Notes under the pieces: generated by a model
What the model was told of the DNA's origin: nothing
Database searches by the model: none
Seen by the model: only the letters and a program-made list of their open reading frames with translations
Shown here: piece after piece, positions 8,720 to 63,160 of the stretch
Numbering within the stretch: the first letter of the stretch is position 1
Layout of the letters: each line of letters begins with the position of its first letter
Source: Polytrichum commune
Lineage: Eukaryota > Streptophyta > Polytrichopsida > Polytrichales > Polytrichaceae
Assembly: GCA_950295325.1 (NCBI GenBank)
Contig: OX485804.1
Location: 57,350,001-57,414,000, forward strand
Length of the DNA: 64,000 nucleotides
Direction of reading: 5' to 3'
Program-made: the position numbers and the translations under genes

Positions 8720-9948
8720 TAGTTAGCTCGCGCTTTCCACTTTTGACAAAAGGGTCACCACAACAATTCATGTCTTAACAAATGTTATGAGCGCATGAGA
8801 ATCCCAAGAAAATGGTATTCCTCCCACGTGACTGATCTTCTTGGCTAGATTGTTGTGATGTTCCTATGACTTACGACCATTTGATTGACATGGAAATACT
8901 TGGCTTCTACGCGGTCGAAGAAAAGGGAGGGTTGAGTCAACATGCTAACTCACCTCTCATTTGGGAGCTTGAGGTTGAAAACTTTTACGAACACAAGTAT
9001 ACCTAGTCCCTACTGCGCCATTTTTATTGGACCGTCAAGTTGATATTAGCCCCTCTATCTCATTGAGGCCACATTGCACTCCGGTACTCCAGGAGTTAGC
9101 TTTTTCGACACCATCTTGATGTGCTTCTAGTCTTCACAAGTCTTTTGGCTTTCTGGACTCTGAAACCAGTTTCATTCGATTGGGTAAGTTCCGCTCGTTG
9201 GCAAAGGCTTTTGTCTGTTGGCATTAAAAGAAGGGAGGAAAAGAGAAAAATAACGGGCCGGCCACGTAACTCGGTGGGGTAGCTAGGCTTCTTGTCGGTA
9301 AAAGCTTTTTGCCGGGGTGGAAATTTTGGGCGGTCCTCACAAATAATCTTCCTGCTTGTCACTTAAAGAGGCAACAAGCCGGGGACCCACAGAACAATTA
9401 TCTTGACGCGCTGGATCCGTGTGCAGGGTGGAGAGCAGACAGAACAAAGGAAGAAGGAGGGGCTTGGTAGCATCTGGTTGTCAAGAGGCGGAAGACAGGC
9501 ATCAAATTTGGGGAGGAGGCGAGCGAGGGAGGGTTCCCAATTATCTCCCCAAATGTCGGGTTTCGGGGTGGATATTATGGAGCCAACTGGAACATCGCAC
9601 ATATTCTCTGTAAACATTTTCACTTTAACCGACAACACAAATTTGTGAGAGGAAAAAGTATATAGCTTTGTCAGCCACCAGTGCGCTTCCTTTGATGACT
9701 AGTCCATGCATTCCAACTTTTCTTTTAGAATATGGAATTCCTATCGCATATCACGCGGCCACATCATTTGTATCAAATCGCTTGTGATGCTCATGCATGC
9801 AGCTCTATCCAAACAACCTCATAGCCCATCGACAGACACTCTTTGATTGCTCGATACCAAGGTGTGTCGGGGTAGGCTCATTACCTCCACTCTGTATCGA
9901 ACATGTAGAACATGAATACAAAACAAAGACGGGCTTACTCATGGATGC
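8720..9948. other. Intergenic, no gene recognised
   Basis: Mixed composition; the interval 9100-9650 is more GC-rich with 80-90 codon open frames on both strands. None resembles a known family. Confidence 0.5.
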
Positions 9949-50020: not shown

Positions 50021-50322
50021 TCTTGCTATTTCTTAGTTATATAGCTTTGTATGTAAATTGTACTTTTTGTCCACGCAAAACCAATTTACGAGGGTTTTAA
50101 TTTGAAGGTGACACATGCACTTAACTCATGCTTTAGGGAAGGTCACTCTTTGTAAGATATTAAGACCCACGCGCACAACAAATTAGGATGGAATAAAATC
50201 CTAATGAGTTAACTTTACAAAACAATTGCCAAGTAATAGGGTACTAATTTTTTTGAGGATATTCATCCATGTTTATGATATATCTTCTGAATTTGTGCAT
50301 TGCTTCATAGCCCCCCTAAAAC

Positions 50323-50400
50323 GAGGGAAGCTATCTTATAAGCGATGAGCAATGAGCAGTGAGCGGTGAGCAATACGACATGAGCAGTGAGCGGTAATAT
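50323..50400. repeat. Left terminal inverted repeat of the 12.8-kb MULE
   Basis: GAGGGAAGCTATCTTATAAG followed by iterated GATGAGCAATGAGCAGTGAG and GAGCAGTGAGCGGT blocks. It pairs with the right TIR. The iterated TGAGCRRTGAGC blocks are plausible transposase-binding repeats. Confidence 0.85.
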
Positions 50401-51945
50401 ATGAATAATGAATTCAAAAATAGTAAAGGTGCACGAGTTTAGGGTACATGAACTAAATATAGTACTACATGAATTGAAGATTTTCAAATGTAAAGAGTTC
50501 AAATGAAGCAAGAAGGAATCGTATTACCGTGGATCATTGGAAATACTTCCAGTCCATTGCTAATTTTTATTATAACAATCCAAACCAAAACATGTCATTT
50601 TTTGACATTCAAATATATGGTACTTAATAGACCATTTGCAATACTACTCACACTCTACAATACCAGCAAGTTCAAGTAGTCGCATGACCTCGTTATAGGT
50701 ATATGTAGGTGCATGAATGAACTTGTCACTCTCGTAATCCACCTTGCACAAAAATCTAAACACATAATAAAGATGTTTACAATACACCCATTTTCCTTTC
50801 TTTCCCAATGCATGAGAGGACATTTTCGTGAAATCCGGGCATGTGCAATGCGGGATGTCGCTAATTGTGACATGGTATGTGATATCTTGCTTGGAGACAA
50901 TGTTGATTATCACTCCAAAGCCCGGATATGGAATGGCAGTGACCCCAACCACATAGTAACCCTCCATGAGTCCGGCACTCTCCCATTTGTTTTTGTGATC
51001 CGCTAGCGGTATTGTTGGATTACGACACACTGTCTTCCCAAACCTGAATGTAGGGTGGGCATCTGGGTTTGGTGGCATAGAAAAATGCGAGTGAGGGATG
51101 GGGAGAGTTGCAATTGTTGAAAGCCTACGACGAGGGGACAATGCCTCCCTCTGCTGTAGTTGAAATCCAGCATCTTCAAGTGCCAAAACCTCCTCTCTCG
51201 ATAGATTGGTACCTATCTTCACCGGCCACGTGTTGGGTACTATAGGCCAGTCCAACACATATTTCTTCTTACTGCCACTCACACAACGCTTGATGTCGTC
51301 AGGGCAAAACCAAAATTCATACTCCACATTGTTGGGAGATCGAAATTCTTTCCTGAGCCCTTTGTATGTTGGGGCAGGTGTGCCATGTTTCCCAGTCCCG
51401 ATTTTAGCATTGCACATAGTCCCTGTAATGGCCTGCAGTGCCCAACATCGTTTGGCTGAGTTGGGTGGTAATCTTCCAATGTGCCAGTTGGAAGCAAGAG
51501 AATCAGTCTCTAACACGGATGTAATATGAGCCACACCATGAATTGCAGAACTCAACGATTCCTCTATGCGTTGACGAGTTATTCGGGTGTTGGGACGAGG
51601 AATGGAATAATTCACTTTATCGGGTCGATGAGAGTCACAATCAGCACCCGGTGGTAGGTTGAGTTTGCGTTTGGTGGAACCAAAGAGTTCTAACCCTTCC
51701 AATGCACAATCTCTAGTGTTGACGTCTTCTGCCCCTGGGTAAGACTTCATGGCATCAGCCAACATTTTTGGATCTCCACACCTGGCAGCTGCTTTGAGTT
51801 TCAAGGAGGCCGAATCAGGATCTTTACCATCAGACCCCCCTTTCAACCATGTCCGGTAATTTGCAATTTGCATGAAGGCACGGATCATGTCGTCCACTGT
51901 AGCTTTATATAAACAAGTCATCTTGTTGCCGGACTGTTGGAGCCA

Positions 51946-52214
51946 TTTGTTGTGTACAATCTCTGCAAGGTTGCATATTGGCATTTCCGCACGCTCTTCT
52001 ATTGTCATATCCTAAGAACAACACACAAATACAAGGATAAGACAAACATAAGATAGATTATATATCTAGGTTTGGGTCGTTCGACCCAAACTGCATATAA
52101 GGTTTGGGTTGAACAACCCAAATTGTTTGTTATTTGTTGTGTACAGTCTCTGCAAGGTTGCATATTGGCATTCCCACACGCTCTTCTATTGTCATATCCT
52201 ATGAACAACACAGA
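51946..52214 (-). repeat. Duplicated splice acceptor and exon-2 start in the transposase gene
   Basis: The segment at 52135-52214 repeats 51947-52027 closely, including the acceptor and the first about 70 coding bases (D-MTIEER...MPICNLAE). The upstream copy ends in a stop after VHNK, so splicing to it would give a transposase lacking the SWIM part. The interval between holds the TTTGGGTCG palindromes. Confidence 0.8.
52071..52122. promoter_or_regulatory. Pair of TTTGGGTCG-class palindromes in the transposase intron
   Basis: TTTGGGTCGTTCGACCCAAA at 52071-52090 and TTTGGGTTGAACAACCCAAA at 52103-52122. Four more copies of the class lie in the central spacer of the same element. Confidence 0.6.
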
Positions 52215-55040
52215 AAGACAAAAATAAGAAAAACATAAGATATATTACATTGAGTAATGAAGTTTGATATGTACTTACAAGTAACATATGGCCACCCCAT
52301 TGTCTGTAACGAAAGTGCCAAAATTCCAACCACTCTGAAAGGTCAAGGATGCCTTCTTCGGAGGCAGCTCCAGATGACAACCACCAAGAACGAATCACAT
52401 GGTACTTGGTCTCAGCGTCGTCCATTGTTTTCGCGTCTTTGTAATCCTTGCATATTTGTTTGTATTGAAATTGCAAGGATGGTTTGATATACTTTTGGAT
52501 CACCTTATCCAAGCTTGCGGACCAATGGAAAAGACATGTACGCTCACGTGCAACCATGGGTAGACTTGGATCACCATCCCCATAAATCGCCCTCACCGCA
52601 TTCCAATTAGCTTGAGCACTATCAGCCATAAACCCTTTGAAGTTTACGTTTGATACACAATTTTTTGCCATGACAGCATTCAAATTTTCCCAAAAGAAAA
52701 TTTGTGCAGCACCATTTTCAGATTGCATGTTACAACACGCAATAGTCAACACTTTACAGTATCGACTGTCGTACACATGGCAAGCCATGGTCGTCCAGTC
52801 CTTCAAACGTTTGACATGGTCAAACATAATCCATAAATTCTCCATATCCCCACCGACTTGCATCCTCTTCACAAGCTCCACACCACTACCTGGAAGGTCT
52901 ACAGACATCTTAAAAACAAACATTTTGTCCTTTGACTGCCCTGGGAACCGACTACCATGGACGAACTTGAAAGCAGAGTGGTCTTTGAGCGCCATAATAC
53001 TATCCATAGTTCCCATTCCACTACGCAAAAAACGCTTTGATCCAGATACAAAGTTACGACAATTTGGAGACGCAAGAGTGCTGAATTTGTCCATAACGAC
53101 CTCTAGGGATGAACCAACCAAGTGATGGCCTTCGACATTTGCGGGAGATTTGAGAAGGTAATCGGCCAAGAATTGTTTGTTCGTTGCCATAACTATGGCT
53201 GAATTTTTTGCTGTGGGTGTTTTCAATACTTCATTTGCAACGCATTGGTATGCCATGTCCAATGATTCACGGCATGTGCTATTGGCCACAGGGTGATCAT
53301 GTACACCAAGATGAATGCAAACCCTGGACATTCCAATCGATGTGGAGTGGATGTATATGATTTGAGCATTACACAAAGCAATGCACACAGGTGTGGAACG
53401 ACATACCTTACACTCGATAGTGGACTTAGTAGGAAGAACAACACCCACAGCAAATGGGATAGGAGTTGAACCGGCCCATTCAGTGTTGTTCCGGAGGCCC
53501 CCATTGCGATTCATGTAATCACAGTAGTCATTATGACATTGGAGATGACCAGCACAAGTAGAGCGCCGGAAGGACAGTCCAAAGTCATTTTGGATATTCG
53601 TGGTTTTGGTGGTGCACCAAGGGTGACCGTCGCACATTTTGTCCATGTCGTCCATTGAGCGACCATACGTACTTGGAGCTTTGAATGCCACAGGAGGATC
53701 TTTTTCTTTTTCTTTGATTTTTTTCTTGACTTTGTCAGCTTCAAGGCATCAACCATAGTCAACCCTGTAGATGAAGGTGAAGGGTGTAGTGGAGGACGTT
53801 GAGAAGGTGAGATTTGGGGAACCACCTTCTTGTACATAAGACCGCAAGGGGATTTGGCTACATGTATAGGAAGTTGAGAAGGAGTATAATGAACACTTCT
53901 AAATGGAAATGGCGATGTGTTTAAAAGATCAACAGATGCACAAATGTCATCTTCTGAATCTGATAGCACAAACACACTATCATCAAGGGGTTCTACCTTA
54001 ACATGTGCGATAGAAGGAATTTGAACTGTGGATGTACCGGATTCGTTTGTCAAAATGACAGTTGAAGCTTGCATCTGAGACTCAGAAAGTCCTATCACCC
54101 TAAATGAACCAGGTCCTAAGATCCACATAAAACCAACATCAGATCAATTTTTTGGAACCAAAATCGTTTCATACACCTCTCCATCTGCAGAGTACATCTC
54201 ATGCTCTAAATACACGGTTCCTATCTGGAGGTTGAATCTCAAACTAAGTAAATCCTCTGAAACACTCACATGACCATTATCTTGGAGTGGCAAGATGAAG
54301 GGAACAAAAGATCCATGAGCTCTAATGGTAGCCATAGAAAATCAAAAGAACATATGAACAACACATCACAAAAATATGGGGTGAATGTTACTTTTGTATA
54401 GAGTTGTGTGAGGAAATGAATGGAAATGAAAACGTGTGATACAATAATGGATGGAGATGAAAGCGTGTGATACATAGCATCTAATAATACAGAAGTGGAC
54501 ATAACACAATAATAATCAAAGAATATTTACGAGCAAGATATACACAAAATATCGTCAAATACTAAAAGTATTGGTAGAAATTTAAAATATATATGTGTGG
54601 ACTGACGTAGATGTAGAAAAAATTAAAATTGGTTGGAAAAATAAATTATTGATCATTATGAATAGAACAAAGTAGGTGTCAGAAAATTTTGGCAGATATA
54701 ACAAAAATAAACACATAATGACAAACGCGTCGAAATATCTCGTTCATTGAACGCCAATTACAACATGTGATCGTAATATACGCCGGATTTTGTGAGATAG
54801 ATACATTGGAAGAATAAATGATAGTACCTGATAGAAAACATATCATAGACACCAACGATGGTGGACGATGTAGAGAGAACACCCGTAAGGCCGAAGAGAA
54901 GACGTAGGAAAGCTTTGTATTTCACTTCCAAGAAAAAAAAGTTCAGATTCAGTGTGGGAAAGAAGAATGCAAATAAGGAAGGGAAAAGAAACTTGTAGAG
55001 TACGGAAGAAGAAACTGTGAAAACACTGGATTTTGATGCG

Positions 55041-55139
55041 ATGGAGGATGATGAAGGTACAAAGAGCAAAGAAGATGTAGACGATCGTATATCAGAGTCC
55101 GAATTGAAGACGGGTTCAAAGAAGACCACAAACAAAAAG
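55041..55139 (+). CDS. Candidate short first exon in the MULE spacer
   Basis: ATGGAGGATGATG opens a 33-codon acidic, Lys/Ser-rich frame that ends exactly at a consensus plant donor AAAAAG|GTAAGT in phase 0. It lies on the same strand as the methylase-like gene and could be its upstream exon, but the acceptor next to 59157 does not match its phase. Weak evidence. Confidence 0.25.
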
Positions 55140-55319
55140 GTAAGTCAGTTCAACGTTCACATAATTTGATAGTGCATAAGTTGTAAGTTAGGACGGAGAA
55201 CCTTGTACGTTCACTCACATGTCATGTAGTAACAATTTATAGAGGTTATAAATTGGAGTGGAGAAACCCTATACGTTAATGCACATGGTATGTAACAGAA
55301 ATTTAGGAAGGCTAAAAGT

Positions 55320-55510
55320 CAGGAGAAGAACGCACAGGGTTTATAAGAGCAACTTAGGAGGCGAGAAGTTGGGAGGAGAAACCCTGTGCGTTACCTCACA
55401 GGGTTTGTAAGAGCAACTTAAGAGGCAAAAAGTTGGGAGGAGAAACCCTGTGCGTTAACGTACAAGGTTTGTAAGAGCAACTTAGGAGGCAAAAAGTTGG
55501 GAGGTAAAAC
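55320..55510. repeat. About 62-bp tandem minisatellite with GTGCGTTA core in the MULE spacer
   Basis: Three units of the type AACCCTGTGCGTTA...CACAGGGTTTGTAAGAGC, followed by AACTTAGGAGGCAAAAAG and TTGGGAGGAGAA. Each unit contains one copy of the GTGCGTTAACGCAC-class palindrome in more or less mutated form. Confidence 0.75.
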
Positions 55511-55909
55511 GACTAGGAGAGCCTAAAAGTAAAACAAATATCTATTGTATGATTTAAATCGATGTTCAGAGCGTAGGAGCAAAAAAACTATTCAAAACGG
55601 GGTTAGAATGCAAGAAATGATAAATATGTCTACTCAAGTATTCATGCAATACGTTATAGGAGCTAGAAAATGACACAAAATAGCATAATTTTTTTTTTGC
55701 CCCGAAACCTAAAATCTACGAGGTGGCCCAAAACAAGGAAATAGATAGAAGAATGAGAAAAAAAATTGATTTCAAACCAAAACAAAATATAAGAAGAATT
55801 TGTAGCTACGGAAGATAATATAGCATATTTTTGTTTTTTTTTGGACCCCATTAGCATTTTTTCCAGATTTTACAAGTTTTGGCAAATCTACGAATTCATG
55901 TCCGGCCCA

Positions 55910-56426
55910 GTGCGTTAACGCATAGGGTGTATACGCTAACGCACAGGGTGTATGCGCTAACGCACAATGGCCTCAAAGTTGCCAGCACAGATCTTGTGCG
56001 TTAACGCACAGGGTCTACGCTAGCAACTTTCTAGCGGCTATGCGGGGCCACGAAAAGCCACGCTAAATATGGCTGCAGGGATGAGTAGTATAAATTGCCA
56101 CACCCCCAAAGCATTCAGTTTTTTTTCTCTCATCTGTCGGACCTGAGCTCGTCGCTGCAAGCTCTCTCATCTACAAGTGCAGTACAAGGTTTGTTTGCAC
56201 TTTCGTGATGACTGGGTAATTGCGCATAATCAGGCGTAAATTGCGGACAGTTTGGGTCGTTCAACCCAAAATGTGAGCATGGTTTGGGTCGAACGACCCA
56301 AACTGTCTGCCTAGTTTGGGTCGCTCGATCGAAACCGCGTGGACAGTTTCAGTCGTTCGACCCAAACCTCGCGTCCAACTTTGGTAGACATGTAGTTGGA
56401 CACACAGACCATGTGCGTTAACGCAC
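55910..56426. promoter_or_regulatory. Cluster of GTGCGTTAACGCAC palindromes
   Basis: Perfect 14-bp palindromes at 55996-56009 and 56413-56426, with close variants at 55910-55923, 55932-55944 and 55954-55966. The motif is usually followed by AGGGT. Concentration inside one transposon spacer suggests a bound protein; this is inference. Confidence 0.6.
56251..56366. promoter_or_regulatory. Cluster of four TTTGGGTCG-class palindromes
   Basis: Copies at 56251-56270, 56283-56302, 56315-56334 and 56347-56366, spaced at exactly 32 bp start to start. Arms are TTTGGGTCG and CGACCCAAA around a two-base centre. Two further copies sit in the transposase intron, also 32 bp apart. Confidence 0.7.
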
Positions 56427-56814
56427 AGGGTCTGCCCTTGTAGTTTTGGGGTGAGCGGCCACCCTAATCGTACAATATTTAAAGGTGCAAATGGCAGTGT
56501 CTAGAATAATTTTTGTCATTTTTCCCTGTGTTCGTGGTATTCTGTTGTTATTGTTGTAGTAAGGATTTTAGGTTTGGGTTCAATCTCTCAAAAAACCCCA
56601 GGGAAGACCAAATAAGTGTCAGGTGTAACTTTAGTGTGTCATAATAAGATTAATTGATAGGTTGAAAGGATTATGAAATGCTTTTGACAGTCAATTAACT
56701 TAGGTTTCACTTTCTCATTTATACTTAGTGACCACTTGTAGGGGTTACTTAACTTATAAAGAGTCTAAGTGTTCATAAAATAAATTATCATCTTGTTTTA
56801 CTCACCAAAAGTCT

Positions 56815-57050
56815 AGTAACGAGTAACCGGGACCGAGTCTAAGCGAACGAGCGAACAAGTCCTAAGCGTCTTAATCGGCCTGAGTGTCACGAGTCTAGTG
56901 TCGAGTCAAGTGCCAAGAGTCTAGAGTCCAGAACCAAAGTCTCAAGTAGACAACCTAGTCACCAGTGCCAAGTAGACAGTCTGAGTAGCCAAGTAACGAG
57001 TCTAGTAACCAGTAACCAATAGACAGTCTTGTGTCATGAGAAGCGTCTAG
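56815..57050. repeat. Degenerate GAGTCTAGTAACCAGT repeat tract
   Basis: Repeated GAGTCTAGT, AAGTAGACAGTCT, CAAGTAACGAGT and similar words without a clean period. Possible old tandem array. Confidence 0.5.
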
Positions 57051-57096
57051 ACACATTAGCCACTGGGAAAGGTTTGGTTATATACCTGCCCTTGGA

Positions 57097-57454
57097 GTGA
57101 ACCGCAACCAATATGGGTTAAAGGCGCGCTTGACTCCCTCTCTCAGCTTCTTCCTCGCCTACAGTTCTTCCTCCAGTTTCATTCACGCTTGCTTCTGCGA
57201 CGCTAGCTTGTCAACCTTGAACACAGTTCACATCTCTCAATCATACTTCATTGATCATGGAATTGGTGGCTCCTACCAGGATCCATTTACAGACATTGAA
57301 GCGAACTAAACACGCGGTGCTCGACTTCCGTTCAACTTCTTCAGAACCAAATGCGGCAAATAATTCCCATTCTGACTTTTTGTCCACCTGTGAGATCCTC
57401 CCGAATGCAATCTCCTTCTTCCTCACAATCATCAAGTTTCTATCTCACATTTGA
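57097..57454 (+). other. GC-richer segment with 65-codon ORF, possible captured gene fragment
   Basis: A C/T-rich leader like a 5' UTR precedes an ATG at 57257, opening a frame of 65 codons (MELVAPTRIHLQTLK...). The composition is unlike its surroundings. Mutator-like elements often carry host gene fragments, but no parent gene is recognised. Confidence 0.3.
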
Positions 57455-59156
57455 CTTTTCACTCCTGCTTCAGTCTATAATTTATTAGGCCCCAGTTTCT
57501 CTCTCCACCAAAGAGGACATCAAATTAGAGAGAGGGAATAGACTTTCCCTGGATTATCAAAAGGGTGATATTTTGGGATTGACACTTCTTCACCAGGATC
57601 GCTTCAACCATCCCCCGAAGACACCATATTGAGATCACCGAGGATTCATTATGAATCGGTGACCTGTAGGAGGAGAAACTTACACAGCCACTTCAATTGG
57701 TATAGGAAAGCTACCAGATGCGAGAATTTGATCGAACTGGTGGGAATCAGAGCTGATTGATAACTCCCTCTCTGGTTCAACAGATAAAAGTCATGACTGG
57801 AGTCTGTATGAGTTAAATGTGTTCTCCACACATATAATACTTTCTAAATTGGCAGGCAATAGAACTTCACATTCAATGCGCCATAGATGATATGGAATTA
57901 ACTATCCTTGACTGTTCCTGTCACCACGGTTACTCACATCATTCACATCCTAGTGGTACTGCTACAACGACACCACTGGAAGTACTCATAAATAATTCAC
58001 ACATTTGTCTTACCTCTCTTAAGGATGAGATTACAAACTCCTCCTCAACTTCTCCTGGGAGTCCTCTCGTTCCCGAGGGAATCACCAGAATTTCCCTTAC
58101 AGAATCCTCAAGAGTTAATTATGTAATTACTCACGGTGGAATTTCACATTCCACTCGTGAGGTATAATCACAATTATAATAATATCGGATTTGAGATCCG
58201 TTGTCTGTTCCACTCAACTTTACTCTGCTCACACATTTAAAGCAGTAAGACACACCCAAGGAATGGGGATTACATGGATTGGTGTGAGGGTGTAATTTCT
58301 TAGAGACTTATCATACGACTGAGAGTTTCTCACTCCTTTCTCTGTCACTGGTTCCTTTACAGGAGTTTGAAGTTGCACAACTAATCCTTACTCCCTTCAC
58401 AAGAGTAGGATAAAATGAATTTCCTCTTGACTTACTCCGAATTAGGGACATTCACTGTCCCCACATCAACTGTAGTTTGTCTTTAGAATCTTAAGACACT
58501 GTCCAAGAAGTTTTGGACTAGACTGTTTACGATCCAATCATGAAACATATGCTATTCAATTCAAGAGTTTCACACTCCTGAATCACAACTCCACATCAAC
58601 AACAATGTTCACAATTTTACATTCACCATTCACCGAGAAAGAATTCAATAATTGTACTGTGTATTGATATAAAAGATGTTGTACAACAAAATTAAGGGCT
58701 TCACACCCTAAGAGTTGAGGAATTCACTCTCTTCACGAGAGGAAGGTCAAAATTACAAAATCCCCCCTTGTCTTCTCCTTCCTTCTTCTTATCTTTCTAT
58801 CCTCAAAAGGTGGTGACTATCTGCAGCTAGGATTCCAAGTGCTACTTCTAATTGTCACATGTGAATTCCATGCCCCCTCATATCCTTCTAAACTCTGGGC
58901 AGCAAAGGAAATTCTTCTTTCCTAGCATGTTTCCATTTCGTAGTGGCTAAGTGTCTAATACTTCACTATTTCACTAGTCTTGAGTAAAATTTGACATTCA
59001 TTTACATCTCAAAACTAAAACTTAAGCATTCAGACCAAAAAATGGTACCACAATTGTTGTTGCTATTGTTGTTGTTTTTGTAATGTTATTGCTAATGTGT
59101 TGCTACTGGTTTTGAAATATTTATGAAACTTATTTCATTTGTTTTAAGACCAATCA

Positions 59157-62100
59157 ATGGATTTGGAGAGAACGACTCCTATTTTTACTGATGATGATTC
59201 CACAATGCGTTCAACTCAAGATCGTCCATTTCAACAAGTTCATCATCATCAGGACATATCGTCAAATCTTCATAATAAGAAAAAGAAAAAAATAAATGAA
59301 TCCCTCGATGATTTTGACTCAGATGAAGATAATGATGGTGACAATAAAACTTATCAACAGAAAGTGTGGGAGCTTACGAACAAACAAAAGGTCAATTCCA
59401 CTTCCACAATTTCCTCAATCCGTGCTGGACCTAATGCTCGCTTACGTGTACCCTTATGTCGCATGGTTCCTATGCCGATTGTGCGTCCTGCTTTGAAGGA
59501 TGATATTACTAAATCGGAGGCTGATTTTTTCAATGGTTATCGTGATGGTGACCGTGTGTTTTATATATCGGCCACCGATTCTAAGGGAAACTTTCAATTC
59601 GTGGATGATGAGGTTCGCGTATCTTGGAGCCCAAATTGGGCTCAAGCCAACGCCCTGTTTGAATTTCAATTGGATACAGATTTGTCATTGACGTCATACA
59701 AGAACAAGATGTTTTTTTATATGGGATGGAAATCACAGATTTTTTGCTTGGAAAAATTATATTGACCGCGTATATACCGAAGATTATGAACGTCATGTCT
59801 TTGTGGATTCTATCATTTTGGCGTCCGAGCCTGACGACATTCCAAGTTTGTTGACTGCTATGCATGACATCAACAAGTAATGTTCTTACCTATTTTTTTA
59901 CACTTATTTCTAGTTTATATTTTGTTTTCCAAATTATATCATCATGAATCTAATCAATTTAATGTTTTTTTCAGGTCAACCAAAAATTCTCACGTATCCA
60001 CCAATTTGGTGCATACTTAATATCGGATGCAAAGTATTGGCACAATGCCTTTGACTTTCTTCAGAAAGCAACTGGATCCAAAGAGTTATAAACGATGTGA
60101 GGAGAAGTCTGTCGAAACTTGGTATTCTTTGACACGACTAATTTTTTTGAATTACATGTACAATGTAAGTTCTTCTACCATTGCTAATATGTGCCTTATG
60201 TTTATTCACCTTCATTTTACATTACATCTATATGTACTTATCAATATTGACTTTTGTTTGATTTTTCAGCAAGAACTTGCTGAGGCTAGCGATATTGCTC
60301 TCAACCAGTACAATGAAATTCATCCTCTTTAACGGACATCAGACGGAGTTTCAAAAGCAATGTCCGCAGCTGTCAACAAAAAACGTGCAATGTTATCTTC
60401 TAGTTTTACGAAACAACTAGCGATTGCCGACATCAACCTTACCTCTGCTTTCCTTGAAGAAGTTAAGCACCATTGGGGTTCATTTTCGGTGCCTGAAATG
60501 CTACAAAAGAAACTTCATCGTGTTGCTGTCAGTAATGTGGATGCAGAAGTCAAAGTTGGATGGCTCAAGCTTTGGAATGGCAATAGATTTGACAAAGATG
60601 CATTGCATTTCCCGAAATCGCCCCTCTCTGATTCTGCACTTGATGATTGGTTATCAAAGTCTACATATTGGGCACAGTTGGAAAAAAAAGCTATCGAAGA
60701 GCTTCAAAGTATTCTTTCATCTCCTCTTTAGTTGCCTACAGATGCGCCTACTCTCTCCGAGTATATCCAAACCTGGAAGTTTGCGGCTTTCAATTTAATA
60801 TTTTATCGTGAATTCCAAAGCAGAAAAGTTAAAAAATACAACGGTTGGGATGAGCAACCTAATATTGATCTTGCTATGAAACGTGTATTATACAGGTACA
60901 ACCTAATCTTATTATTTTTTTGATTTCATTTGTCAAATTGTCATGGAATATTTGACTTACAATATTTTTGTGTGTAGGTATTTTCGATATGTTTTGATTC
61001 TACATAAATGTGTTATAGGGGAACCTTGTTTTTTCCCAAATTGGCATGACACTGGTGCAGGAGATTCATGCATGTTCACTACTGAGATTTGTTTGGATTG
61101 GTCGCTCCCACACTATGAGGATTGTGGTTGGTATCTTGATTGTCCTAAGGATGCATGTCCGTCAAGTGAGAAGACAATCCGTCAGATAAATGATGCTAAA
61201 AATGTGGATCCTCGTGATACTGCAATTTTGCAAGCACAAATTGTGCAGCTTAAACTTAGAGAGCCAGAACCAAAAAAGACTAAACATGGTAAGAAGAAAC
61301 ATGTTCCTGAAACCAAAATACAAGATCAATCGGAAATTTCACAACATGAAGAATTGCTTGTTCTTTCCAATGATTTGGATAAGAATCCACTTGGAGGCGA
61401 AAGTTCAAAGTCTGAGTGCGATGTATTGGAATTTCATTACTCCAGCACCTATGACGCTATTCATCGTGCGCCAACGGATATTTTGAGAAAAGAGTTATTC
61501 ATACTGAAGAACTTTCTCACGCTCTCGTTTGCTCGATCTACTGCTGTCAAGAACAAATCTGAAGGGGTGGATGTAGGCCCTCCTGAGTGGATCCAATGGC
61601 GGGAATTTATTGAAAATGTAAGTATTATTGTTTTGGTATTTTCTCTAATGTTTTTACTTTCATTTAGGTTTTATTTTGTGTCTTATATTGTGATATATTG
61701 TGGTATTTCAGTTCAATGACAATCGCGAATTTCATGTCATGGGAAGTCCGACTTCTTTTGCCGTTGACCTGATTTTTCTCCAATTTCCCGACGGTCTTGA
61801 CTTGAACCTCTCCAATAGACCTACTGAAATTCTTCTTTGGAATAAATATGACAAGAACTGGATGGTTGCAACAATGTCCTTGTGCAAGTTCATCTTGTCT
61901 GATGATAACGTCCTCATAGTATTTTCTGCTATCGATATGCAAACCAAAAAGGTTTTGAATTCAACCTTATACAACGGCAACATGAAAGCTCTTAAGACTT
62001 TTATTTGCCTCAATTCGTACATGGTGTTCAAGGATCCGGAGTCTCCAACCTACACCGTAAGTATAACACATCACAATTGTTTCTATTTAATTATTTTGGT

Positions 62101-62610
62101 ATTATTTGCATTGTATATAGTTTTAACACAATTTACATTTTTTTGTAGACTCCGGCATTTATGACTCATGTCTTGGTAAGGGATTTTACTACCACAAAAT
62201 CCACGAGACAACCAAACTCCACTTTTTTTGGCACTGGATTGAAAAGCAAAAACTTGCTTTTCAATTTTGTGGATGAAAAAAACATGCTTCTTCAAAAATC
62301 GGGAAGACCTTGGAGGGGGCCATATCAAAAATCGCCGCGTTTTTTTCAAGATCTTATTGAATTGTTTACACCATCGAATGGACGCGTTGTTGATTTGACA
62401 TGTTCCACTGGAGCTTCTATCCTAGCAACACGCGCATGTGGCAGACATCTTCTTGCATTTGAGGGTAATAATGACATGTTTGAGCACATATTGAAACCGC
62501 TTTTGGAAAACGTTTTGAAAGAAGGGTCATCTAAGGAGAATATACAAGATCTCACAAAAGAAGATGATAACCTCTCGGATGAGGAGATGCTTGAATTTGA
62601 GTGTGAGTAA
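59157..62610 (+). pseudogene. ParB-like / N4-N6 DNA methyltransferase-like transposon protein, 6 exons, damaged
   Basis: Accessory protein of the MULE, about 993 aa. Exons 59157-59876, 59975-60164, 60270-60895, 60978-61617, 61712-62056 and 62149-62610 have GT-AG borders and phases that close after removing one T from the T7 run at 59712-59718. In-frame stops lie at 60018-60020, 60330-60332 and 60729-60731. The N-terminus is acidic and Lys-rich. After the frameshift the frame reads IWDGNHRFFAWKNYID (W189-R194 in restored numbering), resembling the ParB/sulfiredoxin DGxHR motif. Exon 4 opens with a Cys-rich segment (about 523-568). Exons 5-6 look like a permuted N6_N4 methyltransferase: DLIFLQFPDG (744-753) at the catalytic motif IV position, RPWRGPYQKSP (893-903), then motif I VVDLTCSTG (920-928) and FEGNND. 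Motif IV lacks the usual D/N/S-P-P-Y/W, so catalysis is doubtful. Role inferred only. Confidence 0.65.
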
Positions 62611-62691
62611 GTTTTAATACAATAAATTTTTATTCAAATCATTCGTTTCATTCAATTCATTGGTTCATTTTTATTTCTTCACATTATTTAC

Positions 62692-62967
62692 ATGTTTCAT
62701 CGATTTGATTTCAAGAATACGATTGAAAAGAGGACATGTCTCCCGTTTTGGGCACATAGACAATTCCTACGAAGTCCAAGCCGTAGCCCGCATCTCCCAT
62801 CATATGCCGAGAATGTTGCAATTGCAATGTTGAATCTCGAAGATTCGGATCCAAATGAAGAATCTTGCTATAGTTCCAAAATCAATTCGCAATGCAAAGG
62901 TGCTCGAATATATATAGATGACGAGGCAAAAGATAGTTTCATGTCTAGTGCTACTACTGATGAATAA
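62692..62967 (+). CDS. Candidate last exon of the methylase-like gene or small separate ORF
   Basis: A 91-aa open frame just inside the right TIR, ending in a Ser/Thr/Asp/Glu-rich tail. An acceptor-like TTTCAAG lies at its start (about 62717), but no donor at the end of the previous exon joins it without creating a stop: the strong GTGAGT at 62602 leaves the wrong phase. It may be a diverged terminal exon. No family recognised. Confidence 0.35.
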   Translation: MFHRFDFKNTIEKRTCLPFWAHRQFLRSPSRSPHLPSYAENVAIAMLNLEDSDPNEESCYSSKINSQCKGARIYIDDEAKDSFMSSATTDE

Positions 62968-63077
62968 ATTTTTGGACTTCATGTTGTTTATCCTTCTCAA
63001 CCCTCTTATTACTAAACCCTAAATCATCATTTTTAAGGCCACAATTCCACGGTTATAGGATATTGGTGGCCCTATTA

Positions 63078-63151
63078 CCAAAATTTTCATCTTCCTCACT
63101 GCTCATAAGTTACCGCTCATTGCTCACTGCTCATAAGATAGCACTCCCCCC
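63078..63151. repeat. Right terminal inverted repeat of the 12.8-kb MULE
   Basis: Its reverse complement begins GGGGGGAGTGCTATCTTATG and continues AGCAGTGAGCAATGAGCGGT, matching the left end with a few indels. The direct repeat CCCTAAAAC follows immediately at 63152-63160. Confidence 0.85.
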
Positions 63152-63160
63152 CCCTAAAAC

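Follow-up and report, generated by a model that had tools for sequence, protein, structure and literature searches.

The window analysed here is a 64,000-nucleotide stretch of the 408-Mb Polytrichum commune assembly (C2:57350001-57414000), and it holds a DNA transposon copy with two genes, a transposase on the minus strand and a second gene transcribed outward on the plus strand. An earlier note on this DNA had described terminal inverted repeats (TIRs) and a direct repeat bracketing a transposase and an outward gene, and this arrangement was borne out, with TIRs of 43 nt each that are 79% complementary, CCCCTAAAAC on both sides and both genes present. The element, its genes and a nested insert are listed below, with positions counted in the window and ORF standing for open reading frame.

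50313..50322, plus strand: target-site duplication, left copy CCCCTAAAAC (ends and flanks read)
50323..63150, no strand: copy of the two-gene DNA transposon, its right end uncertain by 1-2 bases because of a run of C
50330..50372, plus strand: left TIR (inverted-repeat search)
50644..52011, minus strand: transposase C-terminal ORF, 455 codons, with a SWIM-like CxC...CxH motif by eye
52192..54143, minus strand: transposase main exon region, frame split; ORFs 52192-53748 and 53511-54143 in two frames, overlapping
59157..59876, plus strand: exon 1 of the second gene, coding for an acidic N terminus and a ParB/sulfiredoxin-like domain; 1-base insertion in the window copy
59975..60164, plus strand: second gene exon 2
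60270..60895, plus strand: second gene exon 3
60978..61617, plus strand: second gene exon 4
61712..62056, plus strand: exon 5 of the second gene, coding for the initial half of the methyltransferase-type domain, with LQFPDG at motif IV
62149..62606, plus strand: exon 6 of the second gene, coding for the latter half of the methyltransferase-type domain, with VVDLTCSTGAS at motif I
62715..62967, plus strand: exon 7 of the second gene, whose splice acceptor the window copy has lost
63100..63142, minus strand: right TIR (inverted-repeat search)
63151..63160, plus strand: target-site duplication, right copy CCCCTAAAAC (ends and flanks read)
56555..59052, no strand: nested insert resembling a solo long terminal repeat, not part of the element; 2,498 bp, TG...CA ends, 5-bp ATTGT duplication

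The window element belongs to a large two-gene DNA transposon family and is a degraded copy. This copy is non-functional, with both the second gene and the transposase frame broken: the second gene carries three in-frame stops and one inserted base and has lost its last splice acceptor, and the transposase, a single 722-aa frame in the copy C3_1.7, is split in the window. The nested 2,498-bp insert splits the 5' region of the window second gene and is absent from four other full copies in the alignment. As for the direct repeat CCCCTAAAAC, the 9 bp previously given for it did not hold; the run of C blurs its exact length here, and about 10 bp is the length found in the family.

The gene pair across the genome

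For the search of further copies, we used a 26-base tag from the second gene and a 24-base tag from the transposase, each with up to 2 mismatches. The second-gene tag matched 135 places and the transposase tag 174, and the reversed control patterns matched none. Pairing was then compared between 105 listed second-gene places (of at least 135) and 107 listed transposase places (of at least 174). Within 25 kb, 67 of the 105 second-gene places were paired divergently with a transposase, at a spacing of 5.4-9.8 kb in 64 pairs (57 of them at 7.0-9.1 kb) and of 14-20 kb in the other three, and only one non-divergent arrangement was seen. Of the 40 transposase places left, 17 gained a second-gene match by protein search (16 within 7.8 kb and one at 27 kb), a step that added 29 second-gene places picked by hand and yielded one further other arrangement within 30 kb. 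Altogether, 84 of the 107 listed transposase places have a second gene on the divergent side within 30 kb and 23 are unpaired. With one other arrangement within 25 kb and one more within 30 kb, a chance architecture was rejected.

The ends were read in 15 copies, namely the window and 14 fetched copies picked, non-randomly, among the paired ones. The same right TIR closes 14 of these 15. Both ends could be located in ten copies, the window included, and a perfect duplication of about 10 bp, read by eye, flanks nine of them; the exception is C1_66.7. For four others, the fetched stretch did not yield the left end. For C5_18.5, where only the right side was looked at, the right terminus was not found; the second gene of this copy (L007) is nevertheless open, so that an open gene need not go with intact termini. 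We also sampled every second one of the 38 unpaired second-gene places, reading the right side with up to 3 errors allowed, and 18 of these 19 copies end in the same right TIR, with flanks that look different. A second gene living outside the element was therefore rejected. The earlier note had proposed looking for other copies with the same pair, and had asked whether transposase copies always lack the plus-strand gene or whether the methylase-like gene lies mostly outside such TIRs; neither is the case in these samples.

At least three families in the genome share the layout of a transposase with a divergent second gene. A search of the genome with Pfam N6_N4_Mtase (PF01555) gave five matches over the cut-off, two of which lie on the large contigs C4 and C1 and belong to one family, here family 2, the window family being family 1. 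At the family-2 place on C1 (L032) there is a second-gene homologue whose first part is possibly frameshifted, running in two frames, and upstream of it lies a divergent transposase (L035) that is 78-86% identical to that of family 1; the second family-2 copy (L033/L036) has only a partial transposase (residues 1-226, 77% identity). Between families 1 and 2, the transposase differs by 0.056 nonsynonymous substitutions per site (dN) and 0.472 synonymous ones (dS) over 316 codons. In family 3 (L050), a transposase 45-54% identical to that of family 1 lies beyond a ParB-type exon. A protein search with another family-3 exon (L038) gave 912 first-look candidates, and all 150 that were scored matched; this gene type is thus very abundant in the genome. 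The other three N6_N4_Mtase matches lie on contigs C10 and C12, possibly bacterial contaminants. Separately, C8:28693-29496 strongly matches Fer4_NifH (382.8 bits) and may be plastid chlL or a bacterial gene or contaminant.

Mutator transposons and Mutator-like elements (MULEs) make target-site duplications of about 8-11 bp. A MULE survey gives 8-10 bp in the part of its text available to us (PMC6446971), and a passage of another source describes a CH motif after the second D in most MULEs (PMC5225508). By its structure the present element appears Mutator-like: its copies share their TIRs, the duplication is of the expected length, and by eye the transposase has the SWIM-like motif and a D...CxxH pattern (MADSAQANWNAVR ... 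CLFH). The earlier classification as Mutator-like thus stands on these features but found no counterpart in the profile searches. The transposase pieces scored 12.2-13.0 bits against Pfam SWIM (the window ORF 12.2), below the 19.6 cut-off, and those scanned with Pfam had no match to PF10551 (MULE). Neither was the window transposase among the PF10551 matches listed for the genome, for which 150 of 271 candidates were scored. Alignment by hhalign to MULE transposases of the same genome, with profiles of 3-7 rows, gave a probability of 0.2%.

The second gene and its protein

In copy C5_18.5, with the start ATG assumed, the second gene has seven coding exons with GT-AG borders and 1,076 codons; the plus-strand divergent gene of the earlier note was recovered, with one exon more than the six it had counted. 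The gene is open throughout in two of the 15 copies, C5_18.5 and C3_1.7. Between these two, dN is 0.027 and dS 0.203, a ratio of 0.13, and 126 of the 188 differences fall at third codon positions. By this codon comparison, the second gene is held by purifying selection. Divergence between the two open copies is 19-23% in introns 1-3, 14% in intron 4 and 2-5% in introns 5-6, and likewise 10-11% in exons 1-2, 3-7% in exons 3-5 and about 1% in exons 6-7. That both exons and introns become more alike toward the 3' end suggests recombination or conversion there. The contrast separates two subfamilies (L026 against L007/L008), whose 5' exons are about 10% apart and whose 3' exons and introns are nearly identical.

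The C-terminal part of the protein, encoded by exons 5 and 6, is by sequence and modelling a relative by descent of the beta-class N4/N6 DNA methyltransferases. The family-2 protein (L032) scored 32.4-34.5 bits against Pfam N6_N4_Mtase (cut-off 26.7; E 1.1e-7 at 32.4). The window-family protein, taken from C5_18.5, scored 15.4 bits (E 0.018), below the cut-off, and is linked to L032 through exon 6 at 36-37% identity. In the alignment of the domain (A1), 8 of 18 rows match N6_N4_Mtase at E<=1, and the 18-row profile found M1.HpyAVI (5hek, E 7e-7) and CcrM (E 2.5e-5) in the PDB. For the L032 domain, AlphaFold gave a model of only moderate quality, with a predicted local distance difference test score (pLDDT) of 56.7 and a predicted template modelling score (pTM) of 0.61. 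A Foldseek search with it gave a best E of 5.4e-6, and every one of the 33 rows that reached E<=0.001 is an amino-methyltransferase; the model superposes on 5hfj with a VIA Z of 12.1 and a root-mean-square deviation (rmsd) of 4.3 over 167 residues, and on the rotifer N4-methylcytosine (4mC) methyltransferase with a VIA Z of 11.3. Motif IV precedes motif I in the second protein, an order that we take to fit the beta class.

Single-sequence and distant searches gave little. The window-family domain found nothing in the PDB sequence search, and the L032 ORF found methyltransferases there at no better than E 0.32 and 0.42. Phage records searched by tblastn with the family-2 domain gave no match. 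In PHROGs, the matches were to DNA methyltransferase (E 0.016), to a ParB-like partition protein (E 0.29, one member) and to a family of unknown function (E 0.0096). A close-relative search of prokaryote contigs with one protein confirmed none, an NCBIfam scan of the second protein gave one weak unrelated match only, and an Rfam scan gave nothing at the gathering threshold.

The catalytic motif IV of amino-methyltransferases is [DNSH]PP[YFW]. This canonical form is present in none of the 14 rows that cover the motif. Instead, 10 of the 14 rows read D-x-P-[E/D], and in 12 of them an acid replaces the aromatic residue, the readings being DIPDG, DLPEG, DVPED, DIPEN, DISEN, DYPDG, DIPAG, LQFPDG and, once, DIPYG. 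From this departure in every row we infer that methyl transfer has been lost in the second protein. The N4/N6 methyltransferase features reported earlier are accordingly upheld as a family relationship, by the Pfam match, the PDB profile search and the fold, but not as signs of a working methylase.

The N-terminal part is predicted to fold like ParB/sulfiredoxin. In an alignment of 20 rows (A2), D-G-N-H is invariant and P-L-C-R near the start nearly so, and exon 1 of the intact copies reads IWDGNHRFFAW. The domain model (pLDDT 78, pTM 0.76) superposes on ParB 7bnr with Z 9.4 and an rmsd of 1.9 over 90 residues; its leading structural rows are ParB, Noc and KorB, with sulfiredoxin (Srx) lower. 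Among viral predicted structures, a ParB-like phage protein ranks first (E 3e-3). A PDB sequence search with A2 gave unrelated chains at E 0.49 or weaker, and the viral contigs searched with A2 yielded none confirmed.

Palindrome arrays

Tandem palindrome units occupy the intergenic space, and more of them lie between the transposase ORFs. In the window they are as follows.

52071..52122, no strand: two copies of palindrome TTTGGGTCGNNCGACCCAAA, 2 mismatches at most; located between the ORFs of the transposase and probably intronic
55329..55504, no strand: tandem array of a 64-bp unit with a TGTGCGTTAACGCACA-type palindrome
56249..56367, no strand: tandem array of a 32-bp unit with TTTGGGTCGNNCGACCCAAA; starts at 56251, 56283, 56315 and 56347, up to 2 mismatches

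The number of units varies between copies. At up to 2 mismatches, TTTGGGTCGNNCGACCCAAA occurs at 18-20 places in three copies and at 5-6 in the window and in C4_45.6, and TGTGCGTTAACGCACA occurs at 6-13 places per element. The other families have palindromes of their own, TGTTTGTGCGCTGGCGCACAAACA in a 104-105-bp unit in family 2 and CTGTCGGATCCGACAG in a 171-bp unit in family 3. CTGTCGGATCCGACAG is more closely tied to its family: it has 374 places in the genome, and among the 50 listed, 46 have a family-3 ParB-type exon no more than 10 kb away.

We counted dyads with arms of 8 or more and compared them with shuffles of two-base blocks, using 20 shuffles where the region was shorter than 10 kb and 3 otherwise. 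The 1,950 intergenic bases of C1_64.5 hold 15 dyads against a shuffled mean of 0, and the intergenic region of the window holds 3 against 0.05. The other families gave 12 against 0.40 (L050), 5 against 0.30 (L035) and 4 against 0.10 (L036). For comparison, 4 dyads against 0 were counted in the remainder of the window element and 7 against 3.33 in 50 kb of the window beyond it.

Outside these elements, the interval C1:1174000-1194000 (L091, L089, L090) is repeat-rich and carries 18 exact TTTGGGTCGNNCGACCCAAA palindromes, a DUF7869 ORF (E 5.6e-24) and an ORF with DFWLIDGQYNVEASKK that is ParB-like by eye only and has no Pfam match.

Candidate roles and comparison with known systems

We favour, at a probability of about 0.5, a reading in which this is a divergent two-gene transposon whose non-methylating second protein is a palindrome-recognising accessory factor in a VANC-like role. 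The transposase would move the element. The second protein, built of a ParB-type and a methylase-type part, would no longer methylate and would act as a sequence-specific DNA-binding accessory factor, with palindromes like the ones in the intergenic arrays as its targets. It may oppose the silencing of its own elements, or control their expression and mobilisation, and by analogy would correspond in role to VANC of the Arabidopsis VANDAL elements. In the case of this protein we consider methylation unlikely and sequence-specific DNA binding more likely.

Several observations weigh against this proposal. One family-2 copy reads DIPYG at motif IV, and the catalytic loss is deduced from that motif. 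No known DNA-binding domain was found in the whole second protein with Pfam at E<=10; a Pfam ParB match is present in none of the 20 N-terminal domain members, and Foldseek reaches ParB/Srx at 0.05 at best, with none at 0.001. The second gene is intact in only two of the 15 family-1 copies, and its purifying selection was measured only between two family-1 subfamilies; when every pair among the 15 copies is compared, dN/dS ranges from 0.13 to 1.24 with a median of 0.55, which would be expected of copies that mostly decay once inserted. No transposase was found in 9.9 kb of L038 or in 8 kb of L034, which argues against universal pairing. Finally, TTTGGGTCGNNCGACCCAAA occurs at 9,731 places in the genome and the sole other cluster of it examined (C1:1174000-1194000) matches neither gene, so that this palindrome is not specific to the transposon family; on the same two counts the idea that each palindrome is specific to its own family was rejected.

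A more tentative proposal, which we hold to be possible at best, is that a ParB-methylase fusion has become a catalytically dead reader of its own palindromic arrays, with parS-like self-recognition and anti-silencing and with arrays and reader co-diverging by family. We find it rather doubtful that the second protein is a transposition factor for end binding or integration, comparable to mudrB, with the arrays as incidental satellites or transposase sites. The co-inheritance of the second gene with the transposase and the occurrence of TTTGGGTCGNNCGACCCAAA outside these elements would fit such a factor, as would the apparent requirement of mudrB for integration, mentioned in part of PMC6446971; however, it leaves unexplained both the ParB-type plus methylase-type build and the presence of intergenic arrays, different in sequence, in each of three families.

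That the second protein is an active methyltransferase of 4mC or N6-methyladenine with an unusual motif, marking its own element to protect or de-silence it, is improbable in our judgement. The whole-domain Pfam match, the beta-class fold and motif I, in which by eye the Asp is kept in the rows covering it and TG in most, would be in its favour, and the related rotifer 4mC enzyme is reported active in the portion of PMC8885841 at hand; the replacement of the canonical motif IV in every row covering it speaks against activity. A captured host or bacterial fragment carried as a passive rider of the Pack-MULE type was rejected as highly improbable, for although MULEs elsewhere take up host gene fragments (PMC6446971, in part), this gene shows a dN/dS of 0.13 with conserved introns and splice sites, and occurs at 135 places and in three diverged families.

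Should the favoured reading be true, bacterial-type DNA-modification proteins could be repurposed as readers inside a transposon. Since the palindrome arrays are direct candidate targets, self-recognition by a transposon would be testable in one system.

METTL14 and MTA9 keep the methyltransferase fold, have lost the catalytic motif and are nucleic-acid-binding partners. The second protein resembles them in having such a fold without the catalytic motif, but they are host genes of the MT-A70 family. To our knowledge, few transposons carry epigenetic helpers of their own, namely VANC, the TET/JBP proteins and SET-domain genes. Among these, the fungal TET/JBP dioxygenase DNA transposons likewise carry a protein of base-modification type, which is discussed as countering silencing in the available part of PMC12730594, a text that also mentions SET-domain genes in other transposons; their enzyme class is different, and in the second protein here the catalytic motif is lost.

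In build, the second protein resembles fusions known from bacteria, such as Bce_0392 of B. cereus, a ParB-type domain fused to an adenine-methylase-type domain (PMC5512222, in excerpt). Unlike the present protein Bce_0392 is prokaryotic, and its ParB domain is reported there to nick DNA. Likewise comparable are the rotifer N4CMT and the Marchantia 4mC methyltransferase, amino-methyltransferases of bacterial origin in a eukaryote; the sections of PMC8885841 available to us report them as host enzymes that write 4mC, whereas the present protein is transposon-borne with a replaced catalytic motif. For MULEs, the second genes named in the accessible part of the survey are PMD, FAR1, DUF, MutB and unknown ORFs (PMC6446971). 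Among the matches listed in an open-access literature search, there was no recognisable transposon with a ParB-methylase-type second gene.

The closest parallel in role may be VANDAL with its VANC. In the accessible portions of PMC5735166 and PMC10398659, VANC is not called ParB- or methylase-derived. The arrays here, unlike those of VANDAL, are palindromic, with one palindrome widespread beyond the family, and anti-silencing is here a proposal made by analogy. The same portions describe the targets of VANC as noncoding tandem repeats with short motifs, lying in introns and upstream and varying between VANDAL families. Set beside that description, the present element likewise has a transposon-encoded accessory gene next to a transposase, here putatively Mutator-type, and noncoding tandem repeats upstream and probably in an intron whose copy number varies between copies.

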